In this document: one piece after another, positions 1,933 to 55,002 of the stretch
Layout: each line of letters opens with the position of its first letter
Position numbering within the stretch: the stretch's first letter is position 1
Assembly: GCF_000526795.1 (NCBI RefSeq)
Contig: NZ_JAGT01000001.1
Coordinates: 457,001-521,000 of the forward strand
Reading direction: 5' to 3'
DNA from: Ruminococcus flavefaciens AE3010
Lineage (GTDB): Bacteria; Bacillota; Clostridia; Oscillospirales; Ruminococcaceae
Length of the DNA: 64,000 bases
Translations under genes and position numbers: made by a program
The notes under the pieces: model-generated
Seen by the model: only the letters and a program-made list of their open reading frames with translations
Database searches by the model: none
Told to the model about the DNA's origin: nothing

Positions 1933-4443
1933 ATGAAGCAGTATAATGTAACAGGAATGAGCTGTGCTGCATGCAGTGCGAGAGTAGAAAAGGCTGTATC
2001 ATCAGTTGATGGCGTTACGTCATGTTCTGTCAGCCTGCTTACTAATTCTATGGGTGTTGAAGGCACAGCGTCTGCCGAGGCAATTATCGCTGCCGTAAGA
2101 AATGCAGGCTACGGTGCATCAGAAAAGGGCGGAAGCAGATCGGAGGCTTCAAAGCTCGATGAACTTCGGGATACCGAAACGCCCAAGATGAAGCGCAGAC
2201 TTATTGCGTCTCTTGTATTCCTGTTCGTTCTTATGTATATCTCTATGGGACACACCATGTTCGGAGCTCCTTTACCGTCTGCAATGGCAGGCAATCATGT
2301 AATGACAGCTCTTGCGGAGCTGCTTCTCGCCGCCATAGTAATGGTCATCAATCAGAAATTTTTCATAAACGGATTTAAAGGCATTATAAACCGCTCACCC
2401 AATATGGACACTCTTGTAGCACTTGGTTCGGGAGCATCTTTTATTTACAGCACAGCGGTACTGTTTATGATGACAGCAGCACAGCAGCGAGGTGATGCCG
2501 CAGCTGTACACTCATATATGCACGATCTGTATTTTGAGTCTGCGGCAATGATACTCACGCTGATAACTGTTGGAAAGATGCTTGAAGCACGTTCAAAGGG
2601 AAAAACTACCGATGCACTGAAAAGTCTTATGAAGCTTGCTCCCGAAACTGCTGTTATTATCCGTGACGGCAGTGAGGTCAAGATCCCTGTGGAGCAGGTA
2701 AAGAAAGGCGATATATTCGTTGTACGTGCAGGAGAAAGCATACCTGTTGACGGAATAGTTATTGATGGAGAAAGCGCTGTTAACGAATCGGCTCTTACGG
2801 GTGAGAGCATACCCGTAGATAAAACAGTGGGCGACAGTGTATCGGCTGCGACTATTAACAGCTCGGGATATATGCGCTGTGAAGCCACCCGTGTAGGTGA
2901 AGATACAACGCTGGCGCAGATCATCAAAATGGTCAGTGACGCAGCTGCGACTAAAGCTCCTATTGCGAAGATAGCCGATAAGGTCTCCGGAGTATTTGTG
3001 CCTGTGGTAATAGGCATAGCACTTCTGACATTTATTATATGGCTTATAATAGGGAAGAATGTAGGCTTTTCACTGGCAAGAGCAATCTCAGTTCTTGTAA
3101 TAAGCTGTCCCTGCGCATTGGGACTTGCCACACCTGTTGCCATAATGGTAGGAAGCGGCGTAGGCGCAAGGAACGGTCTTTTGTTCAAGACAGCCGCTTC
3201 TCTTGAAGAAGCGGGAAAAGCACAGATAATAGCTCTTGATAAAACGGGAACTATTACAAAAGGCGAGCCGATCGTAACAGATATTATCCCTGCTGCTGAT
3301 TTTTCGGAGCAGGAGCTTCTTGCAATTGCCTATTCACTCGAAATAAAAAGCGAACACCCCCTTGCAAGGGCAATAGTGCAGTATGGCAGCGACAACGGTA
3401 TTAAAGCTGACGATGTCACTGAGTTCAAGGTCATGGCAGGCAATGGCGTATCGGGAAAGTGCGGAGAAAGCTCATATATAGGCGGAAATCACAGCCTTGT
3501 AAGTTCGTCGGCAGATATCAGTGATGAAATTATCTCAATAGCTGAGAATCTTTCGGAACAGGGAAAGACACCTCTGTTTTTCGCAGTGAACGGAAAACTC
3601 GCAGGAATCATTGCCGTAGCCGACGTTATAAAGGACGACAGTGCACAGGCAATAAGCGAATTAAAGAATATGGGCATTCGCGTAGTGATGCTGACTGGTG
3701 ACAATGAAAAAACAGCGGCTTCTATCGGTACTCAGGCAGGCGTTGACGAGGTTATAGCGGGTGTTCTTCCTGAGGGTAAGGAAGCTGAAATACGCAGGCT
3801 TAAAAAGCAGGGAAAGGTGATCATGGTTGGTGACGGTATCAATGATGCTCCTGCGTTAACAGCGGCTGATATGGGTATTGCCATTGGAGCAGGTGCAGAT
3901 GTAGCAATTGACGCGGCGGATATAGTTCTTATGAAGAGTCGCCTGAGAGATGTTCCTGCGGCAGTAAGGCTCAGCAGAGCAGCTTTGCGTAACATACGCC
4001 AGAACCTGTTCTGGGCTTTTATCTATAATATTATAGGTATACCTCTTGCAGCAGGTGTGTATTCAAAGCTTTTCGGCTGGCAGATGAACCCGATGTTCGG
4101 AGCGGCAGCAATGAGCCTTTCAAGCTTTTTTGTTGTGACTAATGCACTTAGACTAAACCTTTTCAAAGTCCATGACAGCAGCCGCGATAAAAGACGCGCG
4201 AATACTTCTGCGGAAGCAAGTGAGCAAACAGGAACTTTAACCGTAAAGATAAAGGGCATGATGTGCGGACACTGTGAAGCAAGAGTGAAAAAGGCTCTGG
4301 AAGAGCTTCCTTTTGTCGATGAAGCCCTGCCAAGCCATGAAAAGGGGACTGCCGAGATAGCTTTGTCAGGCAATATGGACGAAAAAGCTGTCACGAAAGC
4401 AGTTACCGCTGCAGGCTATAAATATCTTGGCATAAAACAGTGA
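1933..4443 (+). CDS. copA: Copper-exporting P1B-type ATPase with N- and C-terminal HMA domains
   Basis: ATP-driven heavy-metal export across the cytoplasmic membrane, most likely Cu(I). The 836-residue protein starts with an HMA domain ([11 protein letters not shown], metal ligands CxxC near residues 10-15). It has the metal-site CPC in transmembrane helix 6 (about residue 392), the phosphorylated Asp in DKTGT (about 436), and the hinge GDGINDAP. Unusually, a second HMA domain ([11 protein letters not shown], about 772-836) sits at the C-terminus, as if a CopZ chaperone were fused on. Ribosome site AAAGGAG lies 7 bases before the ATG. Monocistronic between two terminators. Confidence 0.95.
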
Positions 4444-4452
4444 AACATAATG

Positions 4453-4479
4453 AAAAGCAGTCTTTAAGGCTGCTTTTTT
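4453..4479 (+). terminator. Terminator after copA
   Basis: Stem AAAGCAG/CTGCTTT around a short loop, followed by a T run. Confidence 0.85.
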
Positions 4480-4508
4480 CAGTATATCGGGAAATTATTG
4501 CTGCGGAC

Positions 4509-4537
4509 TTGCAAAAGTCACGGAAATGTGATATAAT
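4509..4537 (+). promoter_or_regulatory. Promoter of the topoisomerase operon
   Basis: TTGCAA (4509-4514), 17-base spacer, extended -10 TGATATAAT (hexamer 4532-4537). Confidence 0.8.
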
Positions 4538-4578
4538 ATCAAAGTATGCATTAAAACGTGACCGAAAGGCAGAGGATT

Positions 4579-6558
4579 ATGGCTAAGAAACAAGATTACG
4601 GCAATGACAGTATATCAATGCTCAAGGGCGCGGACAGAGTCCGTAAGCGCCCTGCGGTTATATTCGGCTCTGACGGCTTGGACGGCTGCGAGCACTCAAT
4701 TTTTGAGGTCATCTCCAACTCTATTGACGAGGCTCGCGAGGGCTACGGCAATAAGATAATCATTACTCATTACAGGAATAACGATATTGAAGTCGAGGAC
4801 TTCGGACGCGGCTGTCCTGTTGACTATAATAATAACGAAAAGCGCTATAACTGGGAGCTTGTCTACTGTGAGCTCTATGCAGGCGGTAAGTATGATACAG
4901 CTGCTGAGTCTTATGAGTATTCACTGGGACTTAACGGACTTGGTCTTTGTTCTACCCAGTATTCGTCTGAATTTATGGACGTTGAGGTAATACGTGACGG
5001 TTTCAAGTACGACCTGCACTTTGAAAAGGGCAATAACGTAGGCGGCTTAAAAAAAGAGCCCTGCAAGAAAAAGCAGACAGGAACCAAGACACGCTGGCGC
5101 CCCGACCTTGAAGTATTCACTGATATCAGTGTTTCCGACGAGTTCTTCTGCGATATTCTTAAACGTCAGGCTATAGTAAATCCAAATATACTCTTTGTGT
5201 TCCGCTCGGAAAATGAAGCAGGCGGCTTCAATGAGCAGGAGTTCTTCTACGAGTCGGGTATAACCGAGTATGTTCAGGAGATAGCAGGTGAGGGTGCGCT
5301 TTCTTCCATACAGCACTGGACTGCTGAAAAAAAGGGACGCGACCGTGATGATAAGCCCGAGTATAAGGTGAAGCTTGATGTGGCAGTAACTTTCTCCAAC
5401 AAGGCAAAGCTCACGGAGTACTATCACAATTCAAGCTTTCTTGAACACGGCGGTTCGCCCGAGGAAGCTGTAAAGCGTGCTTTTGTCGCACAGATAGACA
5501 GCTATATCAAGTCTGTGAACGGCTACCAGAAGAATGAGGGAAAGATAACTTACCCCGATGTTGAGGAAAGTCTTATTCTCGTTTCCTCGTCCTTCTCGAC
5601 CCAGACTTCATATGCCAATCAGACCAAAAAGGCTATTACCAATAAGTTTATACGCGAGGCTATGACAGAGTTCCTGCGCCATCAGCTGGAGGTCTACTTC
5701 ATTGAGAATCCCGATGAGGCTCAGAAGATAGCCGAGCAGATACTTATAAACAAAAGAAGCCGTGAAAATGCGGAAAAGGTACGTCTTAACGTAAGAAAAA
5801 AGCTGACAGGTACTATCGACCTTGCAAATATGGTGGAGAAGTTCGTAGACTGCCGTACCAAGGACGTTTCACGCCGTGAGATATATATCGTGGAGGGTGA
5901 TTCGGCTCTCGGTTCTGTAAAGCTTGCAAGAAACGCGGAGTTTCAGGCAATCATCCCTGTCCGCGGCAAGATACTCAACTGCCTTAAAGCAGAGTACTCC
6001 AAGATATTCAAGAGTGAGATAATCACTGATCTTATCAAGGTCCTTGGCTGCGGAGTCGAGGTCACTACCAAAGCCAACAAGGAGCTTTCAAACTTTGATA
6101 TAAACAATTTCCGTTGGAGCAAGATAGTTATCTGTACCGATGCGGACGTTGACGGCTTCCAGATAAGAACCCTCATACTCACCATGCTTTACAGACTAAC
6201 TCCGACTCTTATCGAGCAGGGCTATGTCTATATAGCTGAGTCGCCGCTATTTGAAATAAATACTAAGGAAAAGACATATTTTGCCTATACCGAGCAGGAA
6301 AAGCAGCGTATACTTGAAATGATCGGCGATAAAAAGCACACCATACAGCGCTCGAAAGGTCTCGGTGAGAACGAGCCCGATATGATGAGCCTTACGACTA
6401 TGAACCCTGATACCCGACGTCTTATCAAGGTAACTGCGGAGGATATCACCGAGTCTGCAGAGGTATTTGAGATGCTTCTCGGAGACGATTTACAGGGACG
6501 TAAGGATTATATATCCGAATACGGCGCTGACTATCTCGAGCTTGCTGATATAAGCTAA
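4579..6558 (+). CDS. Type II DNA topoisomerase, subunit B (ParE/GyrB-like)
   Basis: ATPase subunit of an ATP-dependent type II topoisomerase (topoisomerase IV or gyrase type). GHKL ATPase motifs are visible: N-box EVISNSIDEA, G1 DFGRG, G2 GLNGLG. The TOPRIM domain follows: EGDSA (about residue 440), RGKILN, and DADVDG for metal binding. The 659 residues fit the family. ATG 4579 is preferred over GTG 4558 because AAGGCAGAGG precedes it. It heads a three-gene unit with a zinc-ribbon gene and the A subunit. Canonical gyrA/gyrB are expected elsewhere, so this pair is probably topoisomerase IV or a lineage-specific third enzyme. The sequence alone does not decide. Confidence 0.92.
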   Translation: MAKKQDYGNDSISMLKGADRVRKRPAVIFGSDGLDGCEHSIFEVISNSIDEAREGYGNKIIITHYRNNDIEVEDFGRGCPVDYNNNEKRYNWELVYCELYAGGKYDTAAESYEYSLGLNGLGLCSTQYSSEFMDVEVIRDGFKYDLHFEKGNNVGGLKKEPCKKKQTGTKTRWRPDLEVFTDISVSDEFFCDILKRQAIVNPNILFVFRSENEAGGFNEQEFFYESGITEYVQEIAGEGALSSIQHWTAEKKGRDRDDKPEYKVKLDVAVTFSNKAKLTEYYHNSSFLEHGGSPEEAVKRAFVAQIDSYIKSVNGYQKNEGKITYPDVEESLILVSSSFSTQTSYANQTKKAITNKFIREAMTEFLRHQLEVYFIENPDEAQKIAEQILINKRSRENAEKVRLNVRKKLTGTIDLANMVEKFVDCRTKDVSRREIYIVEGDSALGSVKLARNAEFQAIIPVRGKILNCLKAEYSKIFKSEIITDLIKVLGCGVEVTTKANKELSNFDINNFRWSKIVICTDADVDGFQIRTLILTMLYRLTPTLIEQGYVYIAESPLFEINTKEKTYFAYTEQEKQRILEMIGDKKHTIQRSKGLGENEPDMMSLTTMNPDTRRLIKVTAEDITESAEVFEMLLGDDLQGRKDYISEYGADYLELADIS

Positions 6559-47123: not shown

Positions 47124-47771
47124 TCAATTGACTGAATCAATAAAAGAATATGGGTTATAGTCGGGCACATCTCCAACGATTACGTTTTCAGCGATAATAA
47201 ACTCAAACTCCACACATGTCTCAAAGCTGTAAAGCGGTACTGATGATGTCATTTTTACCTTTATGATCGCAGTTATCCTGTGGCATGTCTGATTGACTCC
47301 TGCACTTTGGAAGTCGTTTCGGAGCTTTATCTGTGCCGAACCTACAGGCGATACTCTTATTCTGATTTTAGGACCTTTACCTGACAGAATATGTGAGTTT
47401 GCAAGCGAACCTATTGGTATTTTAGTTGATTTTTGACTGCTTTTTTCAAGGTTTCTGTTTAAAAGTTCTCCAAGCTCTGACTGTACCTTGTTGATGTTAT
47501 AAGGTATAGTCTCTATCGCTGTGACTTTTTTCTTGTCGTCATATAAAACAGCTGCAAAATCGCTGTATGTAAATCTGTTATCTTCTAGGTAATCCGAGAC
47601 TGTTTTTTCGATAATATCAGTGGCGTTCTTCTGAGCAATATGCTCCGCCTGCAATTCAGCTACGGGACTTATTCTTTTTTCTATTATAAATAGAATGACC
47701 AAGAAAGCCAAAGTCACAAATACAACAAATATTTTACATCTTGATTTGCCGGATTTTTTTCTGTACCTCAT
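47124..47771 (-). CDS. yunB: Sporulation protein YunB
   Basis: A 215-residue protein with a basic start and one N-terminal membrane helix (about 14-32), then the YunB pattern: TDIIEKTVSDYLEDN, TAIETIPYNINKVQSEL, and KIPIGSLANSHILSGKGPKI. In Bacillus yunB is expressed in the mother cell during sporulation and affects spore formation. Its presence suggests the organism, or a recent ancestor, forms endospores. AAGGTGG precedes the ATG. Divergent from the TetM-like fusion gene. Confidence 0.88.
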   Translation of the reverse strand: MRYRKKSGKSRCKIFVVFVTLAFLVILFIIEKRISPVAELQAEHIAQKNATDIIEKTVSDYLEDNRFTYSDFAAVLYDDKKKVTAIETIPYNINKVQSELGELLNRNLEKSSQKSTKIPIGSLANSHILSGKGPKIRIRVSPVGSAQIKLRNDFQSAGVNQTCHRITAIIKVKMTSSVPLYSFETCVEFEFIIAENVIVGDVPDYNPYSFIDSVN

Positions 47772-47891
47772 ATTCCACCTTATTTTAGTATTTATTGGTA
47801 TTATATTCTTTATTATATCGTTATGTGATAGTTTATTTGTATTCAGTTTTCTTTATTATGAAATTATTCATATGTAACAGGAGGTGATACG

Positions 47892-50459
47892 ATGAAAAGA
47901 ATTACTGTTGGAATAACTGCTCATGTGGATTCGGGTAAGACAACACTTGCAGAAGCGATGCTTTATAAGTCAGGAAGTATACGCAGTCTCGGACGAGTTG
48001 ACAGCGGAAATACAGTTCTTGACACAAATTCAATAGAAAAAGAACGCGGAATTACCATTTTTTCTGCACAGGCTGAGCTTTTCACAAAGGATTCTCGGAT
48101 CACGCTCCTTGATACTCCTGGACACGTCGATTTTCTTGCAGAAACCGAGCGAACTATGTGTGTCCTTGATTATGCTATATTAGTTATAAGCGGTACAGAC
48201 GGCGTTCAGAGCCACACTTCCACATTATGGAATATGCTCAGAAAGTATGAAGTACCTGTTTTTATCTTCGTAAATAAAATGGACCTTATTGGTGCTGATA
48301 AAAGCTTTGTTGTAAATGATCTCAGAAGCCGCCTGTCGCAGAACATAGTTGATTTTACAGCTGATTACCGCGATATTTCGGAAAATACAGCACTTTGCGA
48401 TGAAGAGATCATGGAAAAATACGTTGAAAACGGCTTCGTGGAAAAGAATGATATTATACATGCTCTGAACGAGCGACGAGTTTTTCCCTGCTTTTTCGGC
48501 TCTGCTTTAAAGATGCAGGGCGTTGAGGAGTTTTTATCGGTTATTGATGAATACACATGCGAAAAAACATACCGAAATGAATTCAGTGCCAAGGTCTATA
48601 AGATCTCTTACGACTCAAAAGGGAGCCGTCTCACTCATATGAAGATAACAGGCGGCTGTCTGAAAATGAGGGACGAGCTTTGTTATACTGACTGCGATGG
48701 CAGCGAGCAAAAAAGCAAAGTAAGCTCTATTCGTTTTTACACAGGCGAAAAGTTTAGAACATCTGATACCGCAGAAGCAGGTGATATATGTGCTTTAACA
48801 GGTCTTGTCGGAACTTTTGCGGGACAGGGTATAGGCTCCGAGAGAAGTTCAAGCGATGTTTTGTTTGAGCCTGTTATGACGTATAGAGTTATTTATCCAA
48901 AAGAAAAAAATGCCTTTGATGTTCTTAAAGAGCTCCGGCTTCTTGAAGATGAAGATCCTCAGCTCCATATTTGCTGGAATGAGCAGAACAAAGACATTCA
49001 TATACAGATAATGGGGGCTGTACAGCTTGAAGTGCTGACAAAGCTTGTTTTTGAACGTTTCGGATATGCTGTCTCATTTGAGAATGGTGCGGTCACTTAT
49101 AAAGAAACTATAAAATCATCTGTTGAGGGAGTAGGACATTATGAGCCCCTGCGCCACTATGCCGAAGCTCATATACTTCTTGAACCAATGCCGAGAGGCA
49201 GCGGCATTATCTTTGATACAGTATGCTCCGAGGATGAGCTTGATCGCAACTGGCAGAGACTGATATTGACACATCTTGAAGAGAAAACTCATCTTGGTGT
49301 TCTGACAGGTTCCCCCATAACCGATATAAAGATGACTCTCGTTTCGGGAAAAGCACATTTGAAGCATACAGAGGGCGGAGATTTCCGACAGGCAACTTAC
49401 CGCGCCGTAAGACAGGGACTTCGTCTTGCTGAATCTATATTGCTTGAACCATACTATGATTATGAGATAGAACTTCCCACTGAAAATGTCGGTAAAGCAA
49501 TATCTGATCTCCAGCATATGTGTGCAGAATTCGAGGCTCCCGAAAGTCTTGGAGAGATGTCAATAATTCGTGGAAACGCACCTGTTTCCGAGATAAACGA
49601 CTACCGCTCTGACTTTATTGCATATACTCACGGAAAGGGAAGAATATCTTTTGCACTTAGCGGCTACAAAGAGTGTCACAATACTGAAGAGGTAATTGAA
49701 GAAATAGGTTATGATTGTGACAGGGATACCGAAAACAGTGCTGATTCAATATTTTGCAGTCACGGAGCGGGATATGTCGTAAAATGGAATGAAGCCTATG
49801 AACATATGCACCTTCCGCTTATTTCAAATGATGCCGAAGATATTGACAGCAACGAACAGCGAAACGAAAAAGCTGCCAGATTCATTGAAAAAGCCGTAAG
49901 TGACGAGGAGCTTATGGCGATATTTGAAATGACCTACGGTAAGATAAACAGAGATCCCGTAAGAGCCTTCAAGAAAACGAAAGCTGCATCGATAGAAGAT
50001 AAAAAAGTTCGGCTTCCTCAATATGAGGGACCTGACTATCTTCTCGTTGACGGATATAATATTATTTTTGCATGGGACGACCTCAAAAAGATAGCTGAGG
50101 AGAATTTAGACGCCGCAAGAGCCGAGCTGATACACAGAATGTGCAATTATCAGGGCTATAACGGAAGTGAACTTATCCTTGTGTTTGATGCTTACAAAGT
50201 AAAGGGCAAGCATCGTGACATTGAAAAGTATTGCAATATTAATATTGTTTACACAAAGGAATCGGAAACAGCTGATTCTTACATTGAAAAGGTCAGTCAT
50301 GAGCTTTCGAAGAAACACAGAGTCCGCGTGGCGACTTCTGACGGACTTGAACAGATGATAATTCTCGGTAACGGAGCAATGAGGATATCCGCAGCAGAAT
50401 TCAGAAAGCGGGTAGATGCTGCCGAGAGCGCAATAAAAGAGTTTATTGACGCATTATAA
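47892..50459 (+). CDS. TetM-like ribosomal GTPase fused to a Rae1/YacP NYN nuclease
   Basis: An 855-residue two-part protein. Residues 1 to about 650 are an EF-G/TetM-type GTPase: P-loop AHVDSGKTT (10-18), RGITIF, DTPGHVDF (74-81), NKMD (about 128), then translation-factor domains ending in GKGRISFALSGY and GAGYVVKW. Residues about 710-855 are a complete NYN-domain ribonuclease like Bacillus Rae1 (YacP): LLVDGYNII, ILVFDAYKVKG, TKESETADSYIEK, VATSDGLEQ, with the acidic residues of the active site kept. Rae1 cleaves mRNA in the ribosomal A site, where TetM also docks. AGGAGGTGA ribosome site. Confidence 0.9.
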   Translation: MKRITVGITAHVDSGKTTLAEAMLYKSGSIRSLGRVDSGNTVLDTNSIEKERGITIFSAQAELFTKDSRITLLDTPGHVDFLAETERTMCVLDYAILVISGTDGVQSHTSTLWNMLRKYEVPVFIFVNKMDLIGADKSFVVNDLRSRLSQNIVDFTADYRDISENTALCDEEIMEKYVENGFVEKNDIIHALNERRVFPCFFGSALKMQGVEEFLSVIDEYTCEKTYRNEFSAKVYKISYDSKGSRLTHMKITGGCLKMRDELCYTDCDGSEQKSKVSSIRFYTGEKFRTSDTAEAGDICALTGLVGTFAGQGIGSERSSSDVLFEPVMTYRVIYPKEKNAFDVLKELRLLEDEDPQLHICWNEQNKDIHIQIMGAVQLEVLTKLVFERFGYAVSFENGAVTYKETIKSSVEGVGHYEPLRHYAEAHILLEPMPRGSGIIFDTVCSEDELDRNWQRLILTHLEEKTHLGVLTGSPITDIKMTLVSGKAHLKHTEGGDFRQATYRAVRQGLRLAESILLEPYYDYEIELPTENVGKAISDLQHMCAEFEAPESLGEMSIIRGNAPVSEINDYRSDFIAYTHGKGRISFALSGYKECHNTEEVIEEIGYDCDRDTENSADSIFCSHGAGYVVKWNEAYEHMHLPLISNDAEDIDSNEQRNEKAARFIEKAVSDEELMAIFEMTYGKINRDPVRAFKKTKAASIEDKKVRLPQYEGPDYLLVDGYNIIFAWDDLKKIAEENLDAARAELIHRMCNYQGYNGSELILVFDAYKVKGKHRDIEKYCNINIVYTKESETADSYIEKVSHELSKKHRVRVATSDGLEQMIILGNGAMRISAAEFRKRVDAAESAIKEFIDAL

Positions 50460-50469
50460 TAGCAATAAA

Positions 50470-50494
50470 AGACTTGCGATGTGCAAGTCTTTTT
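50470..50494 (+). terminator. Terminator after the GTPase-nuclease gene
   Basis: AGACTTGC/GCAAGTCT stem, 5-base loop, T run. Confidence 0.9.
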
Positions 50495-50583: not shown

Positions 50584-50687
50584 AAAATTTGATTGGGGTT
50601 TTTGCAGGAAATGCATTATATCCCACTGTTTAATTACTTATATAAATTTTTTCTGCTATGCAGAGTTATTTTTGAGGAGGCTTGTAC

Positions 50688-52085
50688 ATGAAAAAAGTGC
50701 AACTGACAGAAACCGTTTTGCGTGACGCCAATCAGTCATTGATGGCAACACGTCTGCCTTATTCGGATTATGAGGGTATCCTCGCCGATATGGACAAGGC
50801 AGGATATTACTCTATCGAGTGCTGGGGCGGAGCTACCTTCGACTCATGTCTGCGTTATCTCGGTGAGGATCCGTGGGAGAGACTTCGCAATCTCAGAAAG
50901 AATCTTCCCAACAGCAGACTCCAGATGCTTCTCAGAGGTCAGAATCTTCTGGGCTATAAGCACTACCACGACGATGTAGTAGAGAAGTTCATTGAACTTT
51001 CTATCAAAAACGGTATCGACGTTATCCGTATCTTTGATGCTCTCAATGATTTCAGAAATATTGGTACAGCTCTTGAAGCTACGAAGAAATACGCAACAGA
51101 AAAGACTATCGCTTCAGGATGTATCTCATACACACAGAGCCCCGTACATACAGTTGACAAGTATATTGAGATGTGCAAGGAGCTCAAGACAATGGGCTTT
51201 GATACCATCTGCCTCAAGGATATGGCAGGTACAATGTCTCCTTATGAGGCTGAGCATCTTATAAAGGGCATCAAGGACGCTATCGGCGATATGACACTTA
51301 TACTCCATACTCACTGTACAACAGGTATGGCTTATATGACACTTACCAAGGCTATCGAGTCAGGCATTGATGTTATCGACTGTGCAACATCATGCTTCTC
51401 AGGCGGTACATCTCAGCCTGCAACAGAGACAATGTTCTATGCTCTCCAGCAGTACGGCATTGAGTCAGGTCTTAATGAGGACATTATAAATAAAGTAAAC
51501 GATTACTTCAAGCCTATCAAGCAGAAGTATATCGACAACGGACAGCTCAACCCAAAGAGCCTTGCAACAGATGCTCAGGCTCTCGTTTACAAGGTGCCCG
51601 GCGGTATGCTTTCAAATATGATCGCCAACCTTACAGATATGCACGCTATGGATAAGTTTGATGATGCTCTCGCTGAAATTCCAAAGGTAAGAGCCGATAT
51701 GGGTTATCCTCCGCTTGTTACCCCTCTTTCACAGATGGTGGGAAATCAGGCTGTAACAAACGTTCTTGTAGGCGAAAGATACAAGAATATCTCCAAGGAG
51801 ATAAAGAATTACATAAAAGGCGAATACGGCAATCCTCCTGCACCTATCGCACAGGAGCTTGTTGAGAAGGTACTCGGTGACAGCGAAGCAGTTGACTGCC
51901 GTATCGAGGATCAAAAGCGCACAGGCGAAGAGTTCACAGCTGCAAGAGAAGCTCTCGGTGACCTTTGCCGCAGCGAGGAAGATGTAATGAGCTACATCTG
52001 CTATCCCGATCAGACTATAAAGTTCCTTAATGACCGCAAGGCTAAGGAAGAGAATGAAGCAGTATACACAATTGAAGAAATGTAA
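50688..52085 (+). CDS. oadA: Oxaloacetate decarboxylase alpha subunit (carboxyltransferase)
   Basis: Transfers the carboxyl group from oxaloacetate (or a related acid) to biotin on a separate carrier. The 465-residue product is a DRE-TIM carboxyltransferase: TVLRDANQSLMATRLPY at the start, CWGGATFDSCLR, LLRGQNLLGYKHY, and the metal/biotin region LHTHCTTGMAYMTLTKAIE. It has the PYC_OADA conserved domain but no biotinyl domain, which is supplied by the third gene. ATG 50688 has GAGGAGG 7 bases upstream. First gene of oadA-oadG-BCCP-oadB. Confidence 0.93.
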   Translation: MKKVQLTETVLRDANQSLMATRLPYSDYEGILADMDKAGYYSIECWGGATFDSCLRYLGEDPWERLRNLRKNLPNSRLQMLLRGQNLLGYKHYHDDVVEKFIELSIKNGIDVIRIFDALNDFRNIGTALEATKKYATEKTIASGCISYTQSPVHTVDKYIEMCKELKTMGFDTICLKDMAGTMSPYEAEHLIKGIKDAIGDMTLILHTHCTTGMAYMTLTKAIESGIDVIDCATSCFSGGTSQPATETMFYALQQYGIESGLNEDIINKVNDYFKPIKQKYIDNGQLNPKSLATDAQALVYKVPGGMLSNMIANLTDMHAMDKFDDALAEIPKVRADMGYPPLVTPLSQMVGNQAVTNVLVGERYKNISKEIKNYIKGEYGNPPAPIAQELVEKVLGDSEAVDCRIEDQKRTGEEFTAAREALGDLCRSEEDVMSYICYPDQTIKFLNDRKAKEENEAVYTIEEM

Positions 52086-52097
52086 GGAGGCAGAGTT

Positions 52098-52487
52098 ATG
52101 TATGATAATCTCTTGATTTCTGCCGCTTCTCAGGCTGTTGACGATATGTCTGTCGGCGACGCAGCAGTAACCGCTTTATTCGGATACGCTGTTGTTTTTG
52201 CAGGACTTGTGTGTCTTATGATAGTTCTGTATATTACAGGATCTATTTTCAAATCCAAGGACGCAAAAGCAAAGGCTGCCGCAGAAGCTGCTGCAAAAAA
52301 GGCTGCTCCCACAGTTCCTGCAGCTGAAACAAAGGCAGAGCTTCCTCTTGCACCGGGCTCAGCAGGTCATGTCAAGCTCTTTGACGTTCCTGATAAGGAA
52401 GCTGCAATGATAATGGCTATCGTTGCCGATAAAATGCAGAAGCCGCTCAATGAGCTGCACTTTATTTCCATTAAGGAGGTCAAATAA
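52098..52487 (+). CDS. oadG: Decarboxylase pump gamma subunit (OadG)
   Basis: A 129-residue protein with one N-terminal membrane helix (about 25-50), an Ala/Lys-rich linker, and a C-terminal soluble segment. Gamma subunits tether alpha to the membrane-embedded beta subunit and assist assembly. Identification rests on topology, size and position in the operon, because gamma subunits are poorly conserved. TAAGGAGG lies upstream and the BCCP gene starts 2 bases after its stop. Confidence 0.85.
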   Translation: MYDNLLISAASQAVDDMSVGDAAVTALFGYAVVFAGLVCLMIVLYITGSIFKSKDAKAKAAAEAAAKKAAPTVPAAETKAELPLAPGSAGHVKLFDVPDKEAAMIMAIVADKMQKPLNELHFISIKEVK

Positions 52488-52489
52488 TC

Positions 52490-52891
52490 ATGAAATATAA
52501 AGTTACACTTAACGGTAAAACCTATGAAGTAGAGGTAGAGCAGGGAAAAGCTGTTCTTCTTGAAGAATATGAAGCACTTGCCCCGGCTCAGGCAGCACCT
52601 GCAGCTCCTGCTGCCGCTGCTCCGACAGCAGCTCCTGCTCCTGCGGCTGCACCCGCCGCTCCTGTAAATCTTGCAGCAGGCGAGACAGTAACAGCACCTA
52701 TGCCCGGAAATATCCTCCGAGTTGACGTAGCTCAGGGCGATACAGTAAAGGCAGGTCAGATTCTCATTATACTTGAGGCTATGAAAATGGAGAACGAGAT
52801 CGTTGCTCCGAAGGATGGCACAGTTGCTCAGGTCGTTACAAGCAAGGGAGCAGTTGTTGATACTGGCGCTCCTCTTGTTGTTATAGCATAA
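52490..52891 (+). CDS. Biotin carboxyl carrier protein of the decarboxylase
   Basis: A 133-residue biotinyl carrier. A short N-terminal segment (about 1-25) leads through a long Ala/Pro linker (about 30-62) to the lipoyl/biotinyl domain, with the biotin-accepting Lys in EAMKMENEI (about 100). It carries the carboxyl group between OadA and the Na+-translocating OadB. As a separate gene this resembles the glutaconyl- and methylmalonyl-CoA decarboxylase layout, so the substrate could also be a CoA ester in principle. Confidence 0.94.
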   Translation: MKYKVTLNGKTYEVEVEQGKAVLLEEYEALAPAQAAPAAPAAAAPTAAPAPAAAPAAPVNLAAGETVTAPMPGNILRVDVAQGDTVKAGQILIILEAMKMENEIVAPKDGTVAQVVTSKGAVVDTGAPLVVIA

Positions 52892-52903
52892 GGGGGACAG
52901 AAA

Positions 52904-54124
52904 ATGGACATTCTCGAAACCCTAAAGACCCTTTGGGAAAGCTCTGGCTTCCATAGCTTTCTCATTGACGGAGGCTGGAAAAATCTCATAATGATTTTTG
53001 TTGCCTGCGTCCTTCTTTACCTCGGAATAAAGAAAAAGTTTGAACCGCTTCTTCTTGTTGGTATTGCGTTTGGCTGTCTTCTCGTTAACCTTTCATACTT
53101 TATAGGCGGCGACACTTCCGATGCACTTTATCACCTTGATCTCTGGGATCAGTTCCTCGATGAAGGCAGTGAGTTCCACCACAGCTACGGACACATTATG
53201 GCTCACGGCGGACTTCTTGATATCCTTTATATGGGTGTTAAGGCAGGTATCTACCCTTCACTTATATTCATGGGCGTTGGTGCTATGACAGACTTCGGTC
53301 CGCTCATTTCCAATCCTAAGAGCCTTCTCCTGGGCGCTGCTGCTCAGATGGGCGTATTCCTCGCATTTTTTGGAGCTATATGTCTCGGATTTACAGGCAG
53401 TGAAGCAGCTTCCATCGGTATCATCGGCGGTGCCGACGGTCCTACTGCTATATTCCTGACGACACGTCTTGCTCCTCATCTGCTCGGTGCCATTGCTATC
53501 GCAGCTTATTCATACATGGCTCTTATCCCTATGATACAGCCGCCTCTTATGAAGCTCCTTACAACTAAGAAGGAGAGAGAGGTAAAAATGGAGCAGACAC
53601 GAGTTGTTTCCAAGACAGAGAAGATCATTTTCCCGATAATCGTTGCAATGTTTGTTATTCTTCTTCTCCCGTCAACCGCTCCTCTTATCGGCTGCCTTAT
53701 GCTCGGTAATCTCTGGAGAGAGTGCGGAGTTACAGAGAGACTTTCCGATACAGTACAGAATGCTCTTATGAACATCGTAACTGTATTCCTCGGAATCTCT
53801 GTTGGTGCAACAACGGTTGCTGACAGATTCCTTTCACTTGAGACGATCAAGATCATAGTTCTTGGTCTTACAGCATTCTGCTTCTCAACTGTCGGCGGAC
53901 TTCTTGTCGGCAAGATCATGTACAAGGTCACAGGCGGCAAGGTAAATCCTCTTATCGGTTCCGCAGGTGTTTCTGCCGTTCCTATGGCTGCTCGTGTATC
54001 TCAGATGGAAGGTCAGAAGGCTAATCCTTCAAACTTCCTGCTCATGCACGCTATGGGCCCGAACGTAGCAGGCGTTATTGGTTCTGCTATCGCAGCAGGT
54101 TTCCTCCTTGCAGTATTTAAGTAA
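52904..54124 (+). CDS. oadB: Na+-translocating decarboxylase beta subunit
   Basis: Polytopic 406-residue subunit (about ten helices) that decarboxylates carboxybiotin and exports Na+. The ion-path signature IGGADGPTAIFLTTRLAPHL (about 170) with its essential Asp is intact, as is the second repeat GSAGVSAVPMAARVSQ near the C-terminus. Together with the preceding genes it forms a complete primary Na+ pump. The Na+ gradient may drive AgcS-type uptake (25285-26523). A terminator follows. Confidence 0.95.
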   Translation: MDILETLKTLWESSGFHSFLIDGGWKNLIMIFVACVLLYLGIKKKFEPLLLVGIAFGCLLVNLSYFIGGDTSDALYHLDLWDQFLDEGSEFHHSYGHIMAHGGLLDILYMGVKAGIYPSLIFMGVGAMTDFGPLISNPKSLLLGAAAQMGVFLAFFGAICLGFTGSEAASIGIIGGADGPTAIFLTTRLAPHLLGAIAIAAYSYMALIPMIQPPLMKLLTTKKEREVKMEQTRVVSKTEKIIFPIIVAMFVILLLPSTAPLIGCLMLGNLWRECGVTERLSDTVQNALMNIVTVFLGISVGATTVADRFLSLETIKIIVLGLTAFCFSTVGGLLVGKIMYKVTGGKVNPLIGSAGVSAVPMAARVSQMEGQKANPSNFLLMHAMGPNVAGVIGSAIAAGFLLAVFK

Positions 54125-54182: not shown

Positions 54183-54841
54183 AGATATATTTGCTTGCTT
54201 CTTTTAAACTCAGGCTGCTTAAAGCGCTTTTATTTCGCTCTATGAAGCTCTTTACCCAAGCGGGAGCTGTTTTTGAGTATTCCCTCAGCGCCCATCCGAT
54301 AGCTTTATTTATAAAGAATTCGTCGGTACCAAGGCAATTGAGTATTATTTTTGATAACAGCTCGGTATCGGTTTTTTTCTTTATATGCCAGCTGGTGCTG
54401 GATAGCTGTTCTTTTCAGCCAGATATTATCGCTTTCGGACCATTCTATCATAATTTTGCCGACTCTGTTATCTCTCAGACCGATATCACCGATGACTTTG
54501 CAAAGAAAATCAATAGTATCCCACCATGATCTGGCGGTAATATAAGACTTTATTTTCTCAATATCTTCAAAAGTAAGGTGCTTCTTCATAGCAATAAGAT
54601 AATCATAAACAAGATACTGTAATTCTCTGTGTTCATCTTCATAGCATTTATCAAGGAAATCCCAGTCTATTGTTTTTCCTTTTTTCTCTGATTTGATGAA
54701 GTCTTTATATAATTCCTTGCGCTCAGGCGAGGGTATACCATAGAATACGAATTTGTTTTTCATATATTTTGACATAGCTGCGGCATTTTCAGGATCTGCA
54801 TGCCTTTCAAACAGGTCTTTTATCGAAATGTACTTGCTCAT
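54181..54841 (-). pseudogene. DNA alkylation repair protein (AlkD-like), frameshifted
   Basis: HEAT-repeat DNA glycosylase family (AlkC/AlkD). The frame from ATG 54841 reads MSKYISIKDL through RSWWDTIDFLCKVIG and IWLKRTAIQHQLAYKEK, then runs off to an early stop at 54305. The adjacent frame carries the expected family C-terminus: CLGTDEFFINKAIGWALREY then SKTAPAWVKSF, stopping at 54181. The break falls in a run of seven A (minus strand, 54372-54378); six A would restore one frame of about 220 residues. It is a genuine frameshift, slippage, or a homopolymer sequencing error. Confidence 0.8.
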
Positions 54842-55002
54842 CATTTTCACCTTGAATACTTTTATAAGATTTTTGCAAATAATATTATACATTACACACG
54901 CAGTTTTGTCAAATAAACGCCCGAATTCGTGGACATTTCTGCCTTTTTTGAGCCTGCTACAAAAATTTTACATCTTTAACTTGAAAAATATTACGGAAAA
55001 GC

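Follow-up and report, generated by a model that had tools for sequence, protein, structure and literature searches.

Proteins that join a Tet-type GTPase to a nuclease have been reported before: in the accessible portion of Atkinson 2015 (BMC Genomics, PMC4342817), Tet proteins of ten Clostridiales species are stated to have acquired a YacP-like NYN RNase domain, with a new resistance mechanism via RNase activity suggested and an rRNA RNase ability put forward for testing. The same portion states that the tip loops of Tet domain IV contact ribosome-bound tetracycline and displace it, and B. subtilis Rae1 (YacP) is described, in the available text of two further sources, as an mRNA endonuclease of the ribosomal A site (PMC12320835, PMC6613710). 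The 64,000-nucleotide stretch of Ruminococcus flavefaciens AE3010 analysed here (the window) carries a gene that likewise places both modules in one clostridial protein of the same lineage. Whilst the accessible text of Atkinson 2015 treats such proteins as Tet resistance, our sequence comparisons indicate that the GTPase half is a distinct translational GTPase subfamily, which neighbours the Tet ribosomal-protection proteins without belonging to them. Some members are unfused, a single fusion and a single later loss can account for the history, and the fused form is almost never found together with free Rae1. The fusion itself has been known since 2015, and it is the subfamily status, the unfused members, the history, the exclusion with free Rae1 and the conservation pattern of domain IV that are added here; no description of a separate subfamily, of unfused members, of the tip motif or of the exclusion was found in the accessible portion of PMC4342817, and beyond that paper no other on a GTPase-NYN fusion was found in the literature searched, which omits most subscription papers.

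The first-pass annotation of the window had proposed a TetM-like ribosomal GTPase followed by a Rae1/YacP nuclease in a single 855-residue frame. The frame and the order of its halves are borne out by the open reading frame call and by Pfam, 47892..50459 (+) being one unbroken open reading frame of 855 aa with an ATG start and a strong ribosome-binding site (AGGAGGTGAT). The EF-G-like domains G and II–V are all present, domain III lying slightly under the cut-off, and the C-terminal part, earlier assigned to YacP/Rae1 by its motifs, matches NYN_YacP (PF05991) at 166 bits, far above the cut-off of 24.6. The features are as follows.

47892..50459, + strand: fused gene, 855 aa, stop codon within the span
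47879..47888, + strand: ribosome-binding site AGGAGGTGAT, 3 bases ahead of the ATG, read from the sequence
47898..48557, + strand: G domain (GTPase), residues 3-222 (Pfam PF00009, GTP_EFTU)
48579..48818, + strand: EF-G domain II, residues 230-309 (Pfam PF22042, EF-G_D2)
48867..49079, + strand: EF-G domain III, residues 326-396 (PF14492, EFG_III; 26.8 bits, slightly below the cut-off of 27)
49089..49430, + strand: EF-G domain IV, residues 400-513, where conservation within the family is highest (PF03764, EFG_IV)
49128..49166, + strand: domain IV tip motif 1, GxGHxEPLxHYxE, residues 413-425 (alignment)
49356..49388, + strand: domain IV tip motif 2, in most members HxKHTxGGDFR, residues 489-499 (alignment)
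49440..49682, + strand: EF-G domain V, residues 517-597 (PF00679, EFG_C)
49683..49820, + strand: C-terminal extension of the GTPase subfamily (FCxxG...W...MH), residues 598-643 (alignment)
49821..50039, + strand: variable linker, residues 644-716 (alignment)
49902..49940, + strand: short kept linker motif E..I...T[YF], residues 671-683 (alignment)
50040..50441, + strand: NYN_YacP (Rae1-like) nuclease domain, residues 717-850 (PF05991; last ~26 profile positions unmatched)
50467..50493, + strand: terminator-like hairpin directly 3' of the stop codon (pattern match only)

By sequence, the closest solved relatives of the window protein are TetO and TetM (the best PDB matches), with which it shares domains G–V and a domain IV that is the most conserved of the five. 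However, it scores only 436.9 bits on the NCBIfam model tet_protect (NF012153), which has a cut-off of 775, and nine further family members score 378–444 bits, compared with 853 and 874 bits for two genuine Tet proteins encoded within the class. The family also differs from TetM and TetO in the added NYN domain, in its C-terminal extension, and in the tip of domain IV, where the TetM loop YSPVST with P509 is replaced by HLKHTEGG and K491 stands opposite P509. In the tree of the GTPase part it is split from the seven outgroup sequences with a support of 100. With a score of 437 bits against 775, no YSPVST loop and a clade of its own, identity as a Tet protein was rejected, and the earlier label of TetM-like does not hold as an identity. 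With EF-G the protein shares the domain order, H489 lying opposite H573 of T. thermophilus EF-G in the alignment, but it reaches 304 bits on the EF-G equivalog TIGR00484 against a cut-off of 659.4, and the conservation gradient of the family is inverted, with domain IV highest. The GTPase motifs A10-H-V-D, G15-K-T-T, D74-T-P-G-H and N128-K-x-D are invariant in all 22 members aligned for them, and the extension FCxxG...W...MH occurs in fused and unfused members, most unfused proteins ending there or soon after. The GTPase half deserves a name of its own, not 'Tet'.

The fused form is widespread in the class. NYN_YacP is matched in 250 of 393 genomes (143 are without a match), and 219 of the 250 were classified by open-frame length as long (at least 800 aa) or short (at most 230 aa), the other 31 comprising 30 further species of genera already covered and one genome with a 27-aa fragment under the cut-off (G320). 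The classified genomes divide into 115 with the long form only, 95 with the short form only, 8 with an intermediate frame, and 1 with both (G343), frame lengths, family codes and profile ends having been transcribed manually from search listings. No second NYN was counted in G180, G234 and G268, where the further match is ~21 bits and under the cut-off, or in G429, where it consists of fragments (26.5 and 21 bits, 81 and 49 aa). By family, 20 of 54 have long frames only and 28 short only, with 5 mixed and 1 with an intermediate frame alone. Of 20 regions fetched, 19 hold long frames, all of them true GTPase-NYN fusions, and the 20th holds a standalone yacP. The family of the window itself has an NYN in 27 of 61 genomes, one match apiece, and the architecture is also found in other clostridial families; at phylum level, among the matches listed, 219 of 398 genomes have an NYN match and long frames occur in further families. 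The fused gene is the sole NYN_YacP match in its own genome, so that the profile search found no separate yacP there. As fused and standalone NYN occur together in only 1 of the 219 classified genomes, the fusion appears to have replaced free Rae1, and this near-exclusion is as expected if the fusion performs the work of Rae1. In large parts of the class Rae1 usually takes this fused form, so that many gut bacteria may depend for ribosome quality control on a protein for which no assay was found in the literature searched. The title of Condon 2018 is reportedly on the distribution of Rae1, and that paper may mention the fusion.

Unfused members of the GTPase subfamily also exist. They are likely in 21 of 79 standalone-yacP genomes (a score of at least 467 bits), 13 of the 21 being verified by tip motif 2. 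A quick tree of the GTPase part was built from 36 fused, 23 unfused and 7 outgroup sequences, with L075 dropped as the same gene as L059 and L115, which is cut by a contig end, left out. Two state changes suffice on this tree, namely one gain of the fusion and one later loss, the loss clade (support 92) comprising two Bifidobacterium, a Collinsella, L. salivarius and one genome from the family to which the window belongs. The NYN tree (34 fused, 27 standalone) gives nearly an 'all fused' split with a support of 0.90, off by one standalone protein of genome G269. In that genome, the standalone NYN (L037) lies within the fused NYN clade and is accompanied by a deep-branching unfused GTPase, perhaps a case of fission or transfer. 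Another genome, G166, has two unfused family members. Standalone yacP loci that were inspected mostly adjoin genes that we take to be rlmB- or sigH-like, and the fused gene does not. A search for the ancestral yacP site by way of mrnC gave a weak mrnC-like match with no yacP alongside, its neighbours presumably being obg- and yebC-like genes.

Domain IV is probably the business end of the family, in keeping with a factor of the ribosomal-protection type. Among 59 members, a set partly chosen by tip motif and to that extent biased toward domain IV, its mean pairwise identity is 0.655 against 0.516 for the G domain, and it exceeds the G domain in 1698 of 1711 member pairs, whereas 37 EF-G-like proteins show the opposite pattern, with domain IV lowest at 0.501 against 0.642 for G. 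The proteins fetched independently of the tip motif, namely 19 fusions found by their NYN, a further 9 taken as best matches and 11 additional ones, all carry motif 2 or a one-residue variant of it. Strong conservation of domain IV was rejected as a trait unique to the family, since five Tet-like relatives show it as well (0.626 against 0.498 for G); across seven Tet and Tet-like proteins domain IV lies above G in 10 of 21 pairs. This ranking of domain IV above the other domains, seen in the Tet-like relatives but not in EF-G, points to a task in the A site, and from the differing tip we infer that the A-site ligand of the family differs from that of the ribosomal-protection proteins.

The residues H416, E418, H422, E425, H492, D497, R499, R504 and R507 are invariant in all 59 members, and the tip motifs GxGHxEPLxHYxE and HxKHTxGGDFR are common to fused and unfused proteins with few exceptions (Ser489 in L. 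salivarius, position 491 occupied by Gln or Val, position 496 by Asp, and position 461 once by Cys and once by Asn). In the alignment the kept motifs map to two domain IV loops, one of which holds the equivalent of EF-G H573 and the other what we take to be the Q500 region. These two loops of domain IV reach the decoding site. H489 and H492 were considered as unique to the family and rejected, given that H..HT also occurs in the Tet-like proteins L085 and L123 and that L. salivarius has Ser489, so that only the wider tip motifs are distinctive. L085 and L123, with the domain IV tip H..HTHPxDF, belong with L082, L086 and L087 to another Tet-like group that scores under 775 bits (L082 504 bits, L085 580 bits) and is possibly not concerned with tetracycline resistance either. 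A further fused protein of 985 aa, from Lachnospiraceae AC2029 (L121, 6001-8955), has a diverged tip (HTDSQDFR and HYSE) without H461 and H467, yet keeps the nine invariant domain IV residues and the four NYN aspartates described below; it is a complete fused protein missed by the motif filter and stands outside the family counts and trees.

The NYN half aligns with the solved B. subtilis YacP chains 5mq8 and 5mq9 (E about 1e-28), with which it shares the PF05991 match and four aligned aspartates, D720, D766, D795 and D817 corresponding by alignment count to D7, D53, D81 and D104 of YacP. Aspartate occupies all four positions in every aligned protein of both kinds, 36 fused and 27 standalone; D720 belonged to the motif used for choosing these proteins, and D766, D795 and D817 did not. 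Together with the domains, this alignment supports the earlier proposal that a translational GTPase of the Tet/EF-G-like kind is followed by a Rae1-like NYN with intact acidic residues, kept in its homologues. The motif filter lost no NYN locus among those fetched. Across the 36 fused proteins the NYN falls only slightly short of the G domain in conservation (pairwise identity of 0.548 and 0.581 respectively). Unlike Rae1/YacP, the NYN of the window protein sits behind a GTPase and leaves the last ~26 profile positions unmatched, its match ending at position 140 of 166, short of the C-terminal segment of Rae1. Within the class, profile position 159 or beyond is reached by 51 of 116 long-frame NYN matches as against 95 of 96 short-frame ones, and many fused copies thus seem to be without the Rae1 C-terminal end. 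The loss of this end in 65 of 116 long frames and 1 of 96 short ones is as if ribosome targeting had been handed from it to the GTPase. The available text of PMC6613710 lists R166P in Rae1 among suppressors found in B. subtilis.

Between the two halves, the stretch from W632 to the NYN has a median of 86 residues (range 76–131, n=34), and the linker has a mean identity of 0.23. Its core is nonetheless kept, with E673 in 34 of 36, I677 in 33 of 36, T681 in 32 of 36, and Tyr or Phe at 682 in 33 of 36 proteins. At about 85 residues, the length of the tether may suffice for cleavage to follow the departure of domain IV.

Coupling of two A-site activities can reasonably be inferred from this arrangement, and we give an even chance to the reading that the protein is a housekeeping A-site factor of Clostridia in which GTP-driven docking or clearing by domain IV would be linked to the cutting of mRNA by a tethered Rae1. 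In such a scheme, the GTP form of the GTPase would dock in the manner of TetM where EF-G binds, on a ribosome whose A site is stalled or obstructed, and the special domain IV tip would enter the decoding centre and displace or sense an A-site ligand other than tetracycline. Hydrolysis of GTP would cause domain IV to withdraw, allowing the tethered Rae1 module to move in and cut the A-site codon, with the truncated mRNA passing to a tmRNA-type rescue and the message being destroyed. The two modules would act in turn and not at once, as both presumably fill the same space. The GTPase would be an old stand-alone factor to which the nuclease was added once, thereafter taking over from the free enzyme. 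A more far-reaching version, which we advance tentatively and consider rather unlikely, is that the GTPase subfamily forms an unrecognised class of A-site factor that acts on an A-site ligand or on A-site RNA itself, its domain IV tip specialised, perhaps as a metal-binding or catalytic element, and that it was joined once to Rae1 in gut Clostridia. The product would be a rescue enzyme working in two GTP-timed steps, 'clear then cut', which took the place of free Rae1. The timing of an A-site nuclease can be tested directly on the fusion.

Several observations weigh against such coupling. Of the 79 standalone-yacP genomes, 58 are without a clear GTPase member (one of them, G190, being borderline at 362 bits), so that Rae1 does not depend on the GTPase. 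Among 31 genomes that gave no NYN match, 4 carry an unfused member, and one sub-clade of the GTPase tree appears to have lost the NYN yet keeps the GTPase, indicating that the GTPase does not depend on the nuclease either. The high conservation of domain IV is common to Tet-like proteins and is therefore no proof of a new task, and the sequential step is an added assumption, as domain IV and Rae1 sharing the A site cannot act together. The strongest rival explanation is a simple tethering of the two halves without hand-over, in which the GTPase removes a ligand of its own from the A site, be it an inhibitor, a peptide or a factor, the NYN does ordinary Rae1 work, and the fusion sets dosage and location. 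That unfused GTPase and standalone Rae1 occur apart and together (the latter in the 21 of 79 genomes given above), and that the NYN was lost in a sub-clade retaining the GTPase, fit this explanation well; however, it does not lead one to expect the coexistence of fused and free NYN in just 1 of 219 genomes, the short motif kept within an otherwise variable linker, or the C-terminal end missing from many fused NYN domains, and we consider it rather unlikely. Carriage of the NYN nuclease to the ribosome by the GTPase for maturation or trimming of stable rRNA or tRNA would accord with the RNA processing role generally proposed for YacP-like NYN domains in literature cited by the accessible text of PMC4342817. 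It is less probable again, given that the available descriptions of B. subtilis Rae1 make it an A-site mRNA endonuclease (PMC12320835, PMC6613710) and that 143 of 393 class genomes are without an NYN match, unlike what is expected of an essential maturation enzyme.

The resistance and toxin readings are disfavoured. A tetracycline ribosomal-protection protein with an added RNase is suggested by TetO and TetM as nearest solved relatives, by domain IV being most conserved as in Tet-like proteins, by the Tet label on 5 of 11 NCBI-named relatives among the matches listed, and by the mechanism proposed in the accessible portion of Atkinson 2015 (PMC4342817), but the score of 437 bits against 775 (853 and 874 for real Tet proteins), the replaced YSPVST tip including P509, and the separate clade with a support of 100 make it very unlikely. 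Indirect evidence points the same way: an L. salivarius megaplasmid has an unfused member (379 bits) and tet genes are reported in all compared L. salivarius strains in the available text of PMC5701484, yet strains P1CEA3 (minimum inhibitory concentration of 1, PMC10778751) and MP100 (2, PMC8200559), both presumed to carry the gene, lie below the cut-off according to the accessible parts of those sources. Other L. salivarius strains are resistant, often with tetL or tetM by PCR (PMC8065712), and JCM1046 has a tetM transposon (PMC4165912), again as given in the available text. A ribosome-directed toxin or defence protein, part of which the first-pass annotation had raised as 'toxin-like', finds a parallel in the RelE-family toxins, counted among A-site endonucleases in the accessible text of PMC12320835, but is extremely unlikely. 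The gene is a widespread single-gene unit with one NYN copy and no partner was seen; a blastp comparison of neighbours across 19 loci (in L106 and L119 the gene itself was masked by a longer antisense frame) gave no family common to more than three and thus indicated no adjacent antitoxin partner, and PADLOC gave no match.

The expectation that a Tet label would lead annotators to miss the fusion is correct in part. Among the matches listed, 5 of 11 named relatives are called 'TetM/TetW/TetO/TetS...' by NCBI and 10 of 12 plasmid proteins bear a Tet label, but the other 6 of the 11 are named 'translation factor GTPase family protein', and the fusion was described in 2015 in the accessible portion of PMC4342817. 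Should the resistance function be absent, Tet labels on fused and unfused copies would inflate resistome counts. The L. salivarius megaplasmids carry an unfused member that, among the matches listed, is mostly named TetM/TetW/TetO/TetS; on plasmid pHN3 of L. salivarius CECT 5713 (L198, 4986-6920), such a member is annotated as tetracycline resistance, likely a misannotation.

The source genome is 3.7 Mb in 3 contigs and 98.9% complete, and the closest named relative among the matches listed is a Ruminococcus flavefaciens protein with 98% identity. The fused gene looks like a one-gene unit, as it has its own ribosome-binding site, a terminator-like hairpin after its stop codon, a divergent upstream gene and a separate downstream cluster. 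The upstream gene (47124-47771, −) encodes a YunB-type sporulation protein (PF09560), and downstream lies an ordinary oxaloacetate decarboxylase-type sodium pump cluster (50682-54124, +), with a carboxylase domain and OAD_beta, followed by a DNA alkylation repair gene (54305-54892, −; PF08713).

A broad contig scan, whose patterns fell on general GTPase motifs, returned at least 80 loci that were kept out of the frequencies; 18 passed the motif filter, L121 made a 19th, and 58 others have 26–34% identity. L122, L124 and L125 are fragments, none of which extends past the beginning of domain IV. Of 900 plasmid records with a match, only 2, each a large replicon, span 80% or more of the query. 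At 4310-4818 of an Agathobacter rectalis plasmid (L199), a BrnT-type toxin and a CopG antitoxin lie just upstream of the fused gene on the opposite strand.

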